Source: Oligoflexales bacterium
GTDB taxonomy: Bacteria; Bdellovibrionota_B; Oligoflexia; Oligoflexales; JALZUQ01
Length of the DNA: 32,621 nt
Direction of reading: 5' to 3'
Assembly: GCA_023301565.1 (NCBI GenBank)
Contig: JALZUO010000174.1
Coordinates: forward strand, 1-32,621
Below are positions 8,559 to 13,889 of the stretch, piece after piece. The first letter of the stretch is position 1. Each line of letters starts with the position of its first letter. Below the pieces are notes generated by a model. That model did not search any database and was not told where the DNA came from. It saw only the letters and a list, made by a program, of their open reading frames with translations. The position numbers were made by a program, and so were the translations under genes.

Positions 8559-9455
8559 TTGGAAACATCCTTTGAAGTAAAAAACCCGGTTAGCCAGCCT
8601 ATGATGCAAAATCGTGGGCCTGTTTTTTTATCGTATAGAGCTTGTGACCTGCATTTTTTAGAGCAAGTAAAAGAGTTTTTAGAAATTGCAGGTGTCCCTG
8701 AAATTCAGTTCGACAGTAGACCAAAAATGCTTGTTCGGACCCTGGAATCTTTGCAAACGCTTTGGGCACTGCTCGAGACAAAACAATTAAGCCAAGATTC
8801 TTGTGTATCCTTTGCTAGCGTCAAAGACGACTCAAACTACCTGCTAGAAAACTACAAGGACATAGACAAGTTCCGCTTGAGGTTAGACTTTTTTTGGATC
8901 CTCGAGCGTTTGGCAAAACTTTGCCTTTTAGCTGCCACAGACCCGGACATTAGACTGAAAGACAGCGACAAAATAAAAATACAGTACCCCGAAGCTGCCT
9001 CAACTTGGCTCTTTGAGTCCCAAAAGTTAGATATGCTTCCACTGGACCTTCCAGACCGCACCGAAGGTAAACACTTTTTTCACTGGGGTCACAAGTACTC
9101 GACCCAAGGGCTACGCCGCTGGATGGTCTGGAGTCCTGAAAAAATCAATAAGATTGCTGCCTTGCAGCCATCTTCTCTGCATGTACCCTGGGATAAGTTT
9201 CTCCTAGGCTTTAAATCATGGCTTCAACCTGAAAGCATCCCACCTCTAGAGTTTTCTTTGCGAGTCGACCAAGAAGATTCCTATGAAAAACTCCAAGAAG
9301 ATTTCAAAGACTTAGTGGTTTCGCTAAGGCAAATTACCCAACAGTCGTTGGACCAGAAAAACGCACTCGTGCTTTGGTTTGAAGACCCCAGGTTAGAAGA
9401 TCGGATGGCTTTGACCCCGGAAGAGTTGAATCCGCCTGAAGAAGAAGAGACTTAG
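8559..9455 (+). CDS. Protein of unknown function (298 aa)
   Basis: I recognise no family. The protein is cytoplasmic by appearance: no signal peptide or membrane helix. It has a mixed fold rich in Leu, Asp and Trp, with a predicted helical segment DKFRLRLDFFWILERLAKLCLLA (near 108-130) and an acidic Pro-rich tail PPEEEET. The start TTG has AAGGA 7 bases upstream. ATGs at 8601 or 8604 would shorten it by 14-15 residues. The gene is convergent with the CHASE2-SpoIIE phosphatase gene and may or may not relate to it. Codon use and the long uninterrupted frame support a real gene. Its end overlaps a near-tandem repeat (9449-9475). Confidence 0.7.
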   Translation: METSFEVKNPVSQPMMQNRGPVFLSYRACDLHFLEQVKEFLEIAGVPEIQFDSRPKMLVRTLESLQTLWALLETKQLSQDSCVSFASVKDDSNYLLENYKDIDKFRLRLDFFWILERLAKLCLLAATDPDIRLKDSDKIKIQYPEAASTWLFESQKLDMLPLDLPDRTEGKHFFHWGHKYSTQGLRRWMVWSPEKINKIAALQPSSLHVPWDKFLLGFKSWLQPESIPPLEFSLRVDQEDSYEKLQEDFKDLVVSLRQITQQSLDQKNALVLWFEDPRLEDRMALTPEELNPPEEEET

Positions 9456-9486: not shown

Positions 9487-11478
9487 CTAGGCTGCGGTTT
9501 TTTCGACTTTTTGGCTAGAAGAGCTTTTATCTAAATCGATGCAAAGCATGGTTATGTCGTCTGGCGCTTGCTTGCGTCCAAGGATCTTTGATGTTTCCCG
9601 AAACAACTCCATACTCATATCTTCGAGGGAGCTGTCCGCATATTTTTCAATTAGGCTAAAGAGCTTTTTGGTTCGAATGTTAGAAACCGCTTTATCTTGA
9701 CTTTCAACCAGCCCATCTGTGTAGGTAAACAGCCTTTGTCCTGCATAAAACTCTAGCGTCTTGGTGTTAAAAGAGACGGCTTCAGATACACCCAGAAGAG
9801 ACCCTGTAACTCGTATGGTCTTTGCCTTTCCGTTTTCGATCAAAACCGGAAAAGTATGGCCTGCATTTAGTATGTCGACCATTTTTCTATCTCGGCAAAA
9901 GGAAAAAGCTGTCAAACTCATACTTATCTTACCAGCAAAGGTTGCATACATAACCTGATTGAGTACAGTTGCAATTTGCTTAAGTGGCACGTCGCCTCTA
10001 GCAAGCTCCGAACGTACAATCGCACTTGCCATGGAAGTCACAAGAGCGGCCGAGATACCGTGACCCATCACATCGCCCAAAAACAAAAAGTCGTACTTGT
10101 CGTTTGAAATTTTAAACAGCCAATCGCCAGAGCACTCGGATGCACCAAGAAAAAGACCGTATGACTTAAAGTGCTTCCCGACATACTCACCATCTTTAAT
10201 AAAATGTTTTTGGACAGTGCGAGCCGTCTCTAACTCAGATTCCATCCTGATTTTTTGTACACGCAACGAGCTAGTGCGTTGCCCCATAGCAAAAAGAGAG
10301 GTTACTCCAAAGGAAATAAGTGGGTAAAACCACGGAATAGACAATGAATAATAAGTAAAAATGAGCATACCTGCCAATGGCACGCACCCAAACACAATAA
10401 ACAAACCAAACCAAAAAAAGCCACCGCTAGCTATCAGACCTAGCCATAGCCCCAAAAGTATGCCAACCAATACAAAAAATGGCCTGCCCGTATCCCATTT
10501 GTTGATATGCTTTCCGGTCAATACACTGTTGACCATCCCAGCAATGATCACACCACCAGGCATCGAGCCAAGAAGCGTAGCATGCCAATCAGAGCCGCCT
10601 GTATACATAGCTGGCAAGATCAGTACAGTATCACCTTCGTTTACAACACTTATAGGTTTCTTGCTTCGGGTTGCTCTTAAGTAGAGCGGGGTCATTCCAA
10701 AACTGCTGGCCGCGAGCGACTCTTTCGTGCCATGGTTAACGAGCATTCTTCCACGGCTGTCTAAGTTCACTTTTTTAGTGTTAACGGTAATAGAATTCTC
10801 TTTGACATCATAGCTATCAGATACTGCTGAGCTCAAGTGTGGAAAAATTGTTTTTCTTCCTGCCTTAATATAGCCAGGAATATGACTTTGGTTCATATAC
10901 TGAACATGACCTGCACCATCAAAAAATCTTCGCAGCTGCTTGCTAGCCCCATAAATAAATGGTGTAGCCTGCTTCTGTTCAAAAGAAACTTCACGAAAGA
11001 TTGGCTCTCGGTACCCTGCTTCCCCTATGTTTTTTACTTCGCTACGCCCTGTTATATTTACTGACGTTGAAAACCCTGCAGTGTATATTTTTGTTTGAAT
11101 GTCATCTCTTTTGCTCAACAGATCTAGAACGTCTCCACCAGGAAAGCTAAAAATTTTATCAATAAGAATGGCTCGAGGCTTGCGAGCATCCAAAGATTTA
11201 AATATAGCTGCCCACTCTGCAGTGGATAAGTCAGGCTTGCCTAAAGCAGCAAAGGTTTTATCGTCGAAGAAAAAGACTTTTAGTTTGGGAGATAGTTTAG
11301 GGTTTTTACCCAGCCAGCTCCTCATCTGATAGGATCCGCCTACGGCAATTTCATTTTCTAAAATATCACCAAATTTAGAGCGTTCAAAAACAACCAATGA
11401 AAGCCATACGAGCGCCGCTGCAAGTATGGTCGTCCGAAGGTTGAAATTTGCTACTGTGATTTTAGGCAGCCAACGCAC
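9487..11478 (-). CDS. CHASE2 sensor - transmembrane - SpoIIE/PP2C-type Ser/Thr phosphatase
   Basis: 663 residues. A membrane helix at about 16-33 leads to a periplasmic CHASE2 domain (about 40-320; KVFFFDDKTFAALGKPDL and LDARKPRAILIDKIFS are typical). Three more membrane helices lie near 333-351, 353-377 and 383-398. A short helical linker (403-425) precedes a SpoIIE phosphatase domain (430-650). Metal-binding acids are visible in ECSGDW (Asp452), LGDVMGHG (Asp469), YTDGLVES (Asp588) and PDDITML (Asp640/641). The family dephosphorylates STAS-domain anti-sigma-factor antagonists; a STAS gene lies divergently 231 bases away. Inferred role: an envelope signal controls phosphatase activity on that STAS protein. 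The start codon is GTG with only a distant AAGG. Confidence 0.92.
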   Translation of the reverse strand: MRWLPKITVANFNLRTTILAAALVWLSLVVFERSKFGDILENEIAVGGSYQMRSWLGKNPKLSPKLKVFFFDDKTFAALGKPDLSTAEWAAIFKSLDARKPRAILIDKIFSFPGGDVLDLLSKRDDIQTKIYTAGFSTSVNITGRSEVKNIGEAGYREPIFREVSFEQKQATPFIYGASKQLRRFFDGAGHVQYMNQSHIPGYIKAGRKTIFPHLSSAVSDSYDVKENSITVNTKKVNLDSRGRMLVNHGTKESLAASSFGMTPLYLRATRSKKPISVVNEGDTVLILPAMYTGGSDWHATLLGSMPGGVIIAGMVNSVLTGKHINKWDTGRPFFVLVGILLGLWLGLIASGGFFWFGLFIVFGCVPLAGMLIFTYYSLSIPWFYPLISFGVTSLFAMGQRTSSLRVQKIRMESELETARTVQKHFIKDGEYVGKHFKSYGLFLGASECSGDWLFKISNDKYDFLFLGDVMGHGISAALVTSMASAIVRSELARGDVPLKQIATVLNQVMYATFAGKISMSLTAFSFCRDRKMVDILNAGHTFPVLIENGKAKTIRVTGSLLGVSEAVSFNTKTLEFYAGQRLFTYTDGLVESQDKAVSNIRTKKLFSLIEKYADSSLEDMSMELFRETSKILGRKQAPDDITMLCIDLDKSSSSQKVEKTAA

Positions 11479-11626
11479 TCAAAAAAACCTTTTTTGTTCT
11501 CACTTATTTTCGGTAAAAACCTAAGGCTGGTTTAATCAGAGAAAACCCTCGTCCCGTAGCCAGTTAAAACACCCCTCAAAAGAGACCTCCATGGGCCTTA
11601 GGACGACCACCCTTTTTAAGTTTTTA

Positions 11627-11632
11627 TATAAT
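11627..11632 (+). promoter_or_regulatory. Candidate -10 element of the STAS-GGDEF operon
   Basis: A perfect TATAAT lies in an AT-rich patch (11616-11643), about 78 bases before the STAS start. There is no good -35 hexamer at 16-18 bases upstream, so it may need an activator or be fortuitous. The rest of the 231-base divergent region (11479-11709) shows no other strong element. Confidence 0.3.
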
Positions 11633-11709
11633 AATTTAAGGTATTTAGGACAAACCCCTATGCATCCGCCAACCTTCTTCCGATCTATCACACATAAAGG
11701 AGATTGTTC

Positions 11710-12201
11710 ATGGCATCAAATATCACATACACCATCCATCACGATGGAAATATGGAAATGGCTATTAATGGAAGCCTAGATGAAAACTCGGAAGTATTTC
11801 TGACTAAAGCACTTACTGAGATGAAGTCTTCTTGCTTAATTGACTTTTCAGGTACCACCAACATCAACAGTTGTGGTGTCCGAGCCTGGATCCAGTTTTT
11901 ACAAAAAGCAGAGCAAAAAGCAGAGATTAGATATACCAACTGTGTCCCAGATATCGTGATTCAGATGAATATGATTCCGGCTTTCAAGGGTTCAGCAAAG
12001 GTAATTTCTTTACAAGCCCCCTTCTTTTGCGAAAGATGCGGAACCACAAAAAACATCACGCAAGAAATGAAAGGTGCTTCCTTAGATAAACTAGTGTCAG
12101 ATACCGAGAGTGTTCAATGTGAAACGTGCAAAGAAAGCATGGAGTTCGAAGAAGTTGTAGAAGACTACTACGCTTTTCTTGAAGAGGACCTTGCCAGTTG
12201 A
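11710..12201 (+). CDS. STAS-domain protein (anti-sigma antagonist-like) with C-terminal zinc-ribbon-like motif
   Basis: 163 residues. Residues 1-100 form a STAS fold: MEMAINGSLDENSEVFL, then SCLIDFSGTTNINSCGVRAW. In the SpoIIAA family the phospho-acceptor serine sits in DSSG; here Ser54 in NSCG occupies that place and the preceding Asp is Asn. Residues 107-140 carry two CxxC pairs (Cys107/Cys110 and Cys137/Cys140), spaced like a zinc ribbon, then an acidic tail. I chose the ATG at 11710 because AAAGGAGA ends 6 bases before it; a TTG two codons earlier would overlap that site. The stop overlaps the start of the GGDEF-kinase gene as TTGA, so translation is coupled. It is the likely common target of the neighbouring phosphatase and kinase-like domain. 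Confidence 0.85.
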   Translation: MASNITYTIHHDGNMEMAINGSLDENSEVFLTKALTEMKSSCLIDFSGTTNINSCGVRAWIQFLQKAEQKAEIRYTNCVPDIVIQMNMIPAFKGSAKVISLQAPFFCERCGTTKNITQEMKGASLDKLVSDTESVQCETCKESMEFEEVVEDYYAFLEEDLAS

Positions 12202-13889
12202 GCGCAGTAAAAGTCATAGAGTCCCCAGAGCAGAAACTCTTTGAGTATTTTCAAAACTACAAACAATTCTGTCGTAGTCTTCTAGATGCATATGTACTCA
12301 TCGACCAAAACGGGACCATCCAAGCGAGCAACCCGTTGTTTGGCTTACTCGTTGGCAAGCCAAGCCGGCAACTTTTGGGTAAAATGAAGCTCGGTGAAAT
12401 CATCGATTTCTCAAATGCCAACAATGACCTTCTTTTGGCTAGCCTCCAAAACCTAAAAAGGCCATCTCGATTTGATGAAGTCCAGGTTCGAATTACCACG
12501 CAAAAAGAAGAAAAAAAGCTGATTATGGGTGTTTTTCCGTTTTTAGAAAAAGACTCGCAAGGCAAACAAACATATCTTGGCAGCCTGCTGCATATTCGAG
12601 ACATTACTGCCGAAGCAAGCCTGCAAGGAAAATACATAAATAAGGCATTGGAATCTGTCACCGATTCGCTCACGGGCCTAAAATCTAGAGCAATACTAAG
12701 CACCCCCGAAGCTGTTTTTGAAAAAGAGCAGCAGCATGCTGTTTTTTTGTTAGACATCGATCACTTTAAGAGTGTGAACGACCAGTTCGGCCACCCCTGC
12801 GGAGACTATGTCATCAAAGAGCTAGCCAGGGTCATGCAAGAGCATTTTGGTAGCCGCCCCACTTTAGTGCGATATGGTGGCGAGGAGTTTTTAGTGATTG
12901 CTCCCGGAATAAGCCTGCAAGAGGCAAAATCACACGGCAACAAGCTTATTCAGCGCGTGGCTTCGCACCCATTTGAGTACGAAGGAGTTAGCCACAAAGT
13001 TACGATCAGCTGTGGTTTAATATCGCTCGCCAAAAACACGCCCTACAGCCAGCTCGATGACCATATATCTGCAGCAGATAAGGCGCTGTATGCCGCGAAG
13101 AACGCGGGGAGAAACAGGGCCCACTATGTCTACGATAGCAAAGTAAGCGCCTGTGGTGATTACGAAACTCTTACCGAGACGAAGCCTTCGGTTTCCGGGG
13201 AGTTTTTAACAGATGCGTCTAAATATAAAAAATCTATTTATTGGAACCAAGTTCGCCCAGATACTTTCTCCATACGTTCTACTTTAGTTGAAAAATGGGG
13301 TGAAAGCTCCGATCACTCGGCCTATGGCGAGAACCAGTTTTGTGTATCTCGCTCAGGCCAGCAAAAAAAGCTGGTACAGTTTTGCTTAGACAGCTTGGGG
13401 CCAAATCAAAGACCTGGCATTCAACGCGCTCTAGTAAACACGGCTGAAGAGCTGTACACAAATATTCTCTACGATGCACCTTGCGCTGCTTTTGAGCAGA
13501 GTGGACACAAACATTGTGGACCAAACAAATTTTTGCGCGGAACAAACCTCGAGCTTAGCTCAACCGAACAAGGTCATATCTATATAGAAGAAACTGCAAA
13601 CTTCTGGCAAATTTCAGCCGTTGATCCTTGGGGCAGCTTTACGGCAGCATCTTTTTGGCAACACTACTCAAAATCCCAACAACTCGATCCAAAGTTTAGG
13701 TCTGCAAACGGACTCTCAAAAGGTGCTGGTCTCGGCCTGTTACGGATTCTTTACTTTAGTTCGGCAGTGACCTGTAGGGTTTGGCCGAATATACGTACGG
13801 AGCTGAGTGTATTTATTTCAAAAAAAGAGGCTCCTAGGCCCTTAAAGAACCAAGATCGCTCTGCTGCATACTTCCTCTACGAGTCCTAA
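12198..13889 (+). CDS. PAS - GGDEF diguanylate cyclase fused to an RsbW/SpoIIAB-like HATPase domain
   Basis: 563 residues, TTG start overlapping the STAS stop. Residues about 20-140 form a PAS-like sensor (LLDAYVLIDQNGTIQASNPLFG). Residues 153-313 form a GGDEF domain with intact catalytic features: LTGLKSR, DIDHFKSVND (Asp186, Asn194), RYGGEEF (227-231) and ADKALYAAKNAGRN. The inhibitory RxxD site is absent (GSRP at 218-221). Residues about 380-540 resemble anti-sigma-type GHKL kinases: N-box NTAEELYTNILYDA (Glu418, Asn422), G1-like DPWG (476-479) and G2-like KGAGLGL (508-514). There is no histidine-kinase H-box between the domains, so Ser/Thr kinase or pure switch activity is more likely than histidine kinase. 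Inferred role: couples c-di-GMP synthesis to partner switching with the STAS protein. Confidence 0.87.
   Translation: MSAVKVIESPEQKLFEYFQNYKQFCRSLLDAYVLIDQNGTIQASNPLFGLLVGKPSRQLLGKMKLGEIIDFSNANNDLLLASLQNLKRPSRFDEVQVRITTQKEEKKLIMGVFPFLEKDSQGKQTYLGSLLHIRDITAEASLQGKYINKALESVTDSLTGLKSRAILSTPEAVFEKEQQHAVFLLDIDHFKSVNDQFGHPCGDYVIKELARVMQEHFGSRPTLVRYGGEEFLVIAPGISLQEAKSHGNKLIQRVASHPFEYEGVSHKVTISCGLISLAKNTPYSQLDDHISAADKALYAAKNAGRNRAHYVYDSKVSACGDYETLTETKPSVSGEFLTDASKYKKSIYWNQVRPDTFSIRSTLVEKWGESSDHSAYGENQFCVSRSGQQKKLVQFCLDSLGPNQRPGIQRALVNTAEELYTNILYDAPCAAFEQSGHKHCGPNKFLRGTNLELSSTEQGHIYIEETANFWQISAVDPWGSFTAASFWQHYSKSQQLDPKFRSANGLSKGAGLGLLRILYFSSAVTCRVWPNIRTELSVFISKKEAPRPLKNQDRSAAYFLYES

Follow-up and report, generated by a model that had tools for sequence, protein, structure and literature searches.

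The window analyzed here (the whole stretch of 32,621 nucleotides, contig 174 in the metagenome-assembled genome (MAG) of an uncultured Oligoflexales bacterium) carries three adjacent genes for a CHASE2-SpoIIE phosphatase, a STAS protein, and a PAS-GGDEF-GHKL fusion protein. This locus probably encodes, in three genes, a partner switch of the four-protein type that controls cyclic di-GMP (c-di-GMP) levels, resembling SiaABCD with SiaB fused to SiaD. It encodes together the STAS protein, GHKL kinase, SpoIIE/PP2C phosphatase, and cyclase by which a cyclase-controlling partner switch is recognized. The domains, catalytic residues, and gene order, as well as the apparent relocation and fusion of the kinase gene, were read from sequence. 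In the studied genome (2.78 Mb, 92% complete, 184 contigs), the single STAS gene of this family, the single GHKL gene of its family, and the single CHASE2-SpoIIE gene were all located at this locus.

Proteins encoded at the locus

The STAS protein (11710..12201, forward strand) was assigned by its family profile and by an AlphaFold (AF2) model with a SpoIIAA-like fold. Its open reading frame (ORF) opens at TTG 11704; the likelier start is ATG 11710, which is preceded by aaaggag, a good ribosome-binding site. The Pfam STAS profile (PF01740) matched only weakly and below threshold (0.014). The family profile matched solved anti-anti-sigma proteins, and the AF2 model, with a predicted local distance difference test score (pLDDT) of 89, gave SpoIIAA in the SpoIIAB complex 1th8 as its top structural match and also matched RsbV and RsbS. 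The predicted phospho-acceptor is the Ser of the NSCG motif (codon 11869-11871, Ser56 in ORF numbering). It aligns with the DSAG Ser of TM1442, the phospho-Ser position where helix 2 begins, following the central strand, and is retained in nearly all relatives. Both the SpoIIAA fold and this Ser position place the protein among STAS anti-anti-sigma type proteins. It ends in a zinc-ribbon-like CxxC...CxxC tail that is common to the relatives and was absent from the sequence-only reading of this DNA.

The STAS stop codon overlaps the TTG start of the next gene in a TTGA at 12198-12201. This gene (12198..13889, forward strand) is a single open frame for a 563-residue PAS-GGDEF-GHKL fusion. Its PAS domain, a weak match (residues about 21-137, 12258..12608; Pfam PAS 0.0077, TIGR00229 2.8e-4), is homologous to that of the conserved STAS-linked cyclases. 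The GGDEF diguanylate cyclase domain (residues 154-307, 12657..13118; Pfam 1.6e-34) has intact catalytic residues (D186, N194, and GGEEF at 227-231), a signature that predicts an active cyclase. The inhibitory I-site RxxD, which is RKTD in most of 11 aligned orthologues, is lost in the fusion (12849-12890), and the site is likewise not RxxD in the cyclase of G001, the sole other genome from the window's family in the comparison set. Thus, product inhibition of the cyclase may be absent in this family. The sequence-only reading did not mention this loss.

A linker modeled for the most part at pLDDT below 50 (13119..13334) leads to the C-terminal GHKL Ser-kinase-like domain (residues 380-563, 13335..13886). 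This domain carries the N-box EELYTN (E418/N422), DPWG476, and KGAGLGL508. No H-box or HisKA was found in the fusion protein, in which GGDEF and the linker precede the ATPase, so it is not an orthodox histidine kinase with a phospho-acceptor His. A survey of species genomes for relatives of the domain gave 80 loci, many of them from the SAR324 MAG PL25a_bin.125. In the resulting alignment of 79 members, the window domain included, E418, N422, D476, G479, G509, G511, and G513 (window numbering) were invariant, and 27 members matched HATPase_c_2. The core of the AF2 model exceeded pLDDT 90. Its best solved Foldseek matches were the GHKL Ser kinases PDK1-4 and SpoIIAB, and the N-, G1, and G2 boxes with the Bergerat fold place the domain in the GHKL ATPase/kinase superfamily. 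Because the family keeps these boxes, includes HATPase_c_2 matches, and shares the fold of GHKL kinases, the alignments and model indicate that the motifs in the window are no chance match. The window domain did not exceed the Pfam gathering score of PF13581, the profile of the RsbW/SpoIIAB anti-sigma kinases, and a profile-profile comparison with RsbW-like proteins of the order and with histidine kinases gave an N-/G-box register with RsbW that was weak and uncalibrated. In the tree, the window domain grouped with Oligoflexales genes (96/96, 14-row set), but long branches leave its exact placement uncertain.

The CHASE2-SpoIIE (PP2C-type) Ser/Thr phosphatase gene lies on the reverse strand (9487..11478; Pfam SpoIIE 2.9e-36, CHASE2 2.6e-7). 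Its PP2C motifs were found (GDW451, GDVMGHG468, NAGH538, YTDG586, and PDD639). Hydrophobic segments anchor the protein in the membrane, and CHASE2 is the predicted extracytoplasmic sensor. The phosphatase and STAS genes diverge from an intergenic region (11479..11709, with aaaggag ahead of ATG 11710), in which a promoter scan gave nothing better than shuffled sequences, with promoter and terminator counts near shuffled levels.

The sequence-only reading had described a CHASE2-SpoIIE gene divergent from a STAS gene that overlaps a PAS-GGDEF-HATPase gene, and Pfam, the PP2C motifs, and the TTGA overlap confirmed this arrangement. Its intact Asp186, Asn194, and GGEEF were borne out by sequence and alignment, as were the anti-sigma-type N-box, DPWG, and KGAGLGL without an H-box, boxes that are invariant in the 79-member family. 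By its own criterion, a profile search without a HATPase signal at residues 380-540 would speak against the domain, and a direct Pfam search of the window domain indeed gave no match. A PDB sequence search of the C-terminal half gave nothing useful either; the family alignment, the HATPase_c_2 matches among relatives, and the fold carried the assignment.

Other candidate partners were also considered. A further STAS match in the genome was rejected as belonging to a SulP-like transporter, and a second, weak PP2C match was rejected as adjoining a protein-kinase-like gene. No other clear anti-sigma-type HATPase was found in the genome. A sigma-factor output was set aside, as the annotated genes around it in the window are either metabolic or without assignment and a cyclase is the partner conserved with STAS in the order; a remote sigma factor could still take part. 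A gene for a 298-residue protein (8559-9455), convergent with the phosphatase gene, had no significant Pfam match.

Gene order in relatives and probable origin of the fusion

The best STAS orthologue was compared in each of 17 Oligoflexales loci. In 16 of them, the gene after STAS encoded PAS-GGDEF without the ATPase and was about 325 codons long. This pair often lies downstream of a gene read from its sequence, with no profile test, as arginine decarboxylase. The phosphatase adjoins STAS in both genomes of the window's family, and the order in G001 is SpoIIE-STAS-PAS-GGDEF with an orthologous phosphatase (E 7.7e-105). The ATPase of other Oligoflexales is a separate gene, likewise about 325 codons long, whose product begins with a degenerate receiver-like region. 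It typically sits between TolQ and isocitrate dehydrogenase (IDH), names that were read from sequence. In the studied genome, this interval holds TolQ, aldehyde dehydrogenase, and IDH and no ATPase gene. Given that the gene is missing from the ancestral site and that the fusion is the only family copy, the kinase gene appears to have left the TolQ-IDH site, lost its receiver-like part, and joined the cyclase.

The STAS and GHKL families are also linked outside this locus. They are immediate same-strand neighbors in L119, L122, L135, L139, L147, and L159 (SAR324, Myxococcota, and unassigned genomes), whereas the measured density of STAS genes would give about 0.16 such cases by chance in 80 loci. 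The two genes overlap in L038, from the same class, and L135 carries a SpoIIE-STAS-GHKL trio. Among 43 genomes of the order, both families were absent in 4 and STAS alone in 1 (Fisher p = 4e-5, with kinship ignored and two lineages involved). Furthermore, in the solved SpoIIAA-SpoIIAB complex, one partner is matched by the STAS model and the other by the GHKL model. Because the families are neighbors in distant genomes and are lost together, the fusion serves as Rosetta-stone evidence, which suggests that the GHKL kinase, STAS protein, and cyclase belong to one signaling pathway across the order.

Two related loci were observed. The standalone GHKL gene of G001 adjoins a PilZ-domain gene (L030:6276-7800; Pfam 8.6e-6), another hint of c-di-GMP. 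Family f3 lacks both GHKL and zinc-ribbon STAS, and there a canonical RsbW-like HATPase adjoins SpoIIE (G003:C1:1939455-1941013), as if the switch had been replaced.

The sequence-only reading had also proposed that a kinase-like domain, joined to a cyclase, works with STAS and SpoIIE and that the output could be c-di-GMP. The single-copy families at the locus and the missing standalone gene at the ancestral site support this proposal, with a kinase-type GHKL domain and with c-di-GMP as the likely output. The three-gene neighborhood that it named for a survey recurred in part, as SpoIIE-STAS-PAS-GGDEF in G001 and as the STAS-PAS-GGDEF pair in 16 of 17 loci, but the ATPase was normally a separate gene. 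The conservation of the pair across the order, the separate ATPase, and the close precedents were points that it did not contain.

Proposed switch and alternative explanations

In RsbW/SpoIIAB systems, the kinase phosphorylates a STAS protein and a SpoIIE enzyme reverses the modification. By this logic, the C-terminal GHKL domain of the fusion would phosphorylate the STAS protein on the Ser of NSCG, and the divergent CHASE2-SpoIIE protein would remove the phosphate upon an envelope signal. Depending on its phosphorylation state, the STAS protein would stay on the GHKL domain or dock on the PAS-GGDEF half, and the cyclase would be switched. Fusion of the kinase would make STAS loading local. 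Direct contact between STAS and the PAS-GGDEF half, as between SiaC and SiaD, is expected, since STAS stays with the cyclase even in genomes with a remote kinase gene. The activator may be free or phosphorylated STAS, and the precedents point both ways: free SiaC activates SiaD (PMC8457831), and phospho-HsbA binds HsbD (PMC5085249).

Several observations weigh against this proposal. The fusion was found in one MAG only, and GGDEF occurred in no ORF of the 80 related GHKL loci. CHASE2-SpoIIE adjacency is confined to one family, and in most of the order, the ancestral GHKL gene lies beside IDH and TolQ, not STAS. The window GHKL domain is also very divergent (end branch 4.26) and has no Pfam match of its own.

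The main rival is direct control in cis, in the style of MtT-MtG of Moorella, which we regard as unlikely. Here, the GHKL domain would bind and inhibit the cyclase half, STAS would mainly pull the GHKL domain away, and STAS phosphorylation would end the relief. GHKL anti-sigma kinases function as dimers, as do cyclases, and covalent joining makes such contacts likely; in Moorella, the RsbT-like kinase MtT binds and attenuates the cyclase MtG (PMC7647112). However, STAS accompanies PAS-GGDEF also in genomes with the kinase gene at another site, a pattern better explained by direct contact between STAS and the cyclase. It is less probable still that the GHKL domain is a non-catalytic ATP-/ADP-binding dock for STAS and that the phosphatase has another substrate. 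The domain evolves fast, and kinase activity is a prediction throughout the family, but the ATP-/Mg-binding residues and a catalytic-type Glu are invariant in all 79 members, and the STAS residue predicted to carry the phosphate is a Ser in nearly all relatives.

The fused domain might instead have kept another ancestral job, for example on IDH, with its joining to the cyclase incidental. In many genomes of the order, the standalone gene is near and co-directional with IDH (e.g., L041, L014, and L007), and the best Foldseek matches were mitochondrial pyruvate dehydrogenase kinases. This explanation is nonetheless very improbable: the gene left the IDH site in the studied genome, the GHKL family of distant phyla adjoins STAS and not IDH, and the SpoIIAB match is better when normalized by target length (template modeling score 0.67 vs about 0.2 for the mitochondrial kinases). 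Least credible is an assembly chimera or a recent functionless misfusion, which a single MAG in 184 contigs might invite. The 563-codon frame is uninterrupted with intact active sites on both halves, and the ancestral site is without the gene, with no second copy in the genome.

Beyond the partner switch proposed for the window, a broader proposal is offered tentatively, as slightly less than an even chance. The unnamed GHKL family of Oligoflexales, SAR324, Bdellovibrionota, and Myxococcota would be the dedicated Ser kinase of the zinc-ribbon STAS family, either standalone or as the output domain of sensors (HAMP, cNMP-binding, CBS-receiver, and 7TMR-DISM). In Oligoflexales, it would drive c-di-GMP via the PAS cyclase linked to STAS, with kinase and cyclase merged into a single enzyme in the window genome. 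The fusion places two unnamed families, which are conserved across the order and occur in other phyla as well, in a probable pathway and predicts that separately encoded GHKL and STAS versions act together on a cyclase. With kinase and cyclase outputs on one polypeptide, this compact system could serve as a model for crosstalk between partner switches and c-di-GMP enzymes.

In the wider GHKL family, which Pfam covers poorly, the domain forms the C-terminus of many sensor-like proteins (L095, L100, L105, L111, L118, L031, and L034). Its partners in SAR324, Bdellovibrionota, and Oligoflexales were cNMP-binding, HAMP, HisKA-HATPase-receiver-GAF, 7TMR-DISM, and CBS-receiver. In a genome titled Deltaproteobacteria, a gene next to a GHKL-family member encodes zinc-ribbon STAS domain(s) and a Ser/Thr protein kinase domain in one fusion protein (L122:2681-5191), and the 750-residue STAS proteins of L139, L147, and L159 have a C-terminus without assignment.

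Comparison with known systems

Among open-licence papers, we found none on c-di-GMP in Oligoflexales and none on a GGDEF-HATPase_c_2 fusion. Partner switches that control cyclases have been described in Pseudomonas aeruginosa, S. meliloti, and Moorella (PMC8457831, PMC7647112, PMC5085249), so the sequence-only suggestion of an undescribed type of system was not supported for the principle.

SiaABCD of P. aeruginosa (PMC7647112, PMC8457831) also encodes together a PP2C/SpoIIE phosphatase, a GHKL-like kinase, a STAS-fold target, and a cyclase. There, kinase and phosphatase set the phosphorylation of the STAS-fold protein and thereby cyclase activity, the same logic as proposed for the window. 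However, SiaABCD consists of four separate proteins, whereas PAS, cyclase, and kinase share one chain in the window. SiaC is a DUF1987 protein phosphorylated on Thr, whereas the window STAS protein, with no DUF1987 match, carries a zinc-ribbon-like tail and is predicted to be phosphorylated on Ser. SiaD lacks an N-terminal sensory domain, whereas the window cyclase has a PAS domain, and the sensor of the window phosphatase is CHASE2. The window kinase domain did not match DUF6272, which two GHKL family members match weakly. The NCBIfam models scored 14.9 bits for SiaA (cut-off 700) and 121 for SiaD (cut-off 290), and no SiaB or SiaC model matched at the window. Because these cut-offs were missed, SiaB and SiaC matches were lacking, and the STAS protein is not DUF1987, the system is not a member of SiaABCD.

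In P. aeruginosa, the HsbR-HsbA-HsbD system (PMC5085249) also has a STAS protein that carries a phospho-Ser and binds a cyclase, with kinase and PP2C activities acting on the STAS protein, as proposed for the window. Unlike the window system, HsbR fuses kinase and phosphatase with a receiver, the cyclase is a protein of its own, and FlgM and the flagellar sigma factor are further targets of HsbA. MtS-MtT-MtG of Moorella thermoacetica and BgrSTUWV-BgrR of S. meliloti (cited in PMC7647112 and PMC8457831) share with the window an RsbT/RsbW-like kinase, a STAS protein, and a cyclase output. In both, kinase and cyclase are separate proteins, unlike in the window; the Moorella system is a stressosome, and its MtT contacts the cyclase directly.

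SpoIIAB/RsbW with SpoIIAA/RsbV shares the kinase and STAS folds, the N-box E-x3-N, and the phospho-Ser position with the window proteins. Their output is a sigma factor, whereas in the window a cyclase is joined to the kinase. Therefore, the concept is known, and the covalent joining of kinase and cyclase and the unnamed protein families appear to be new.

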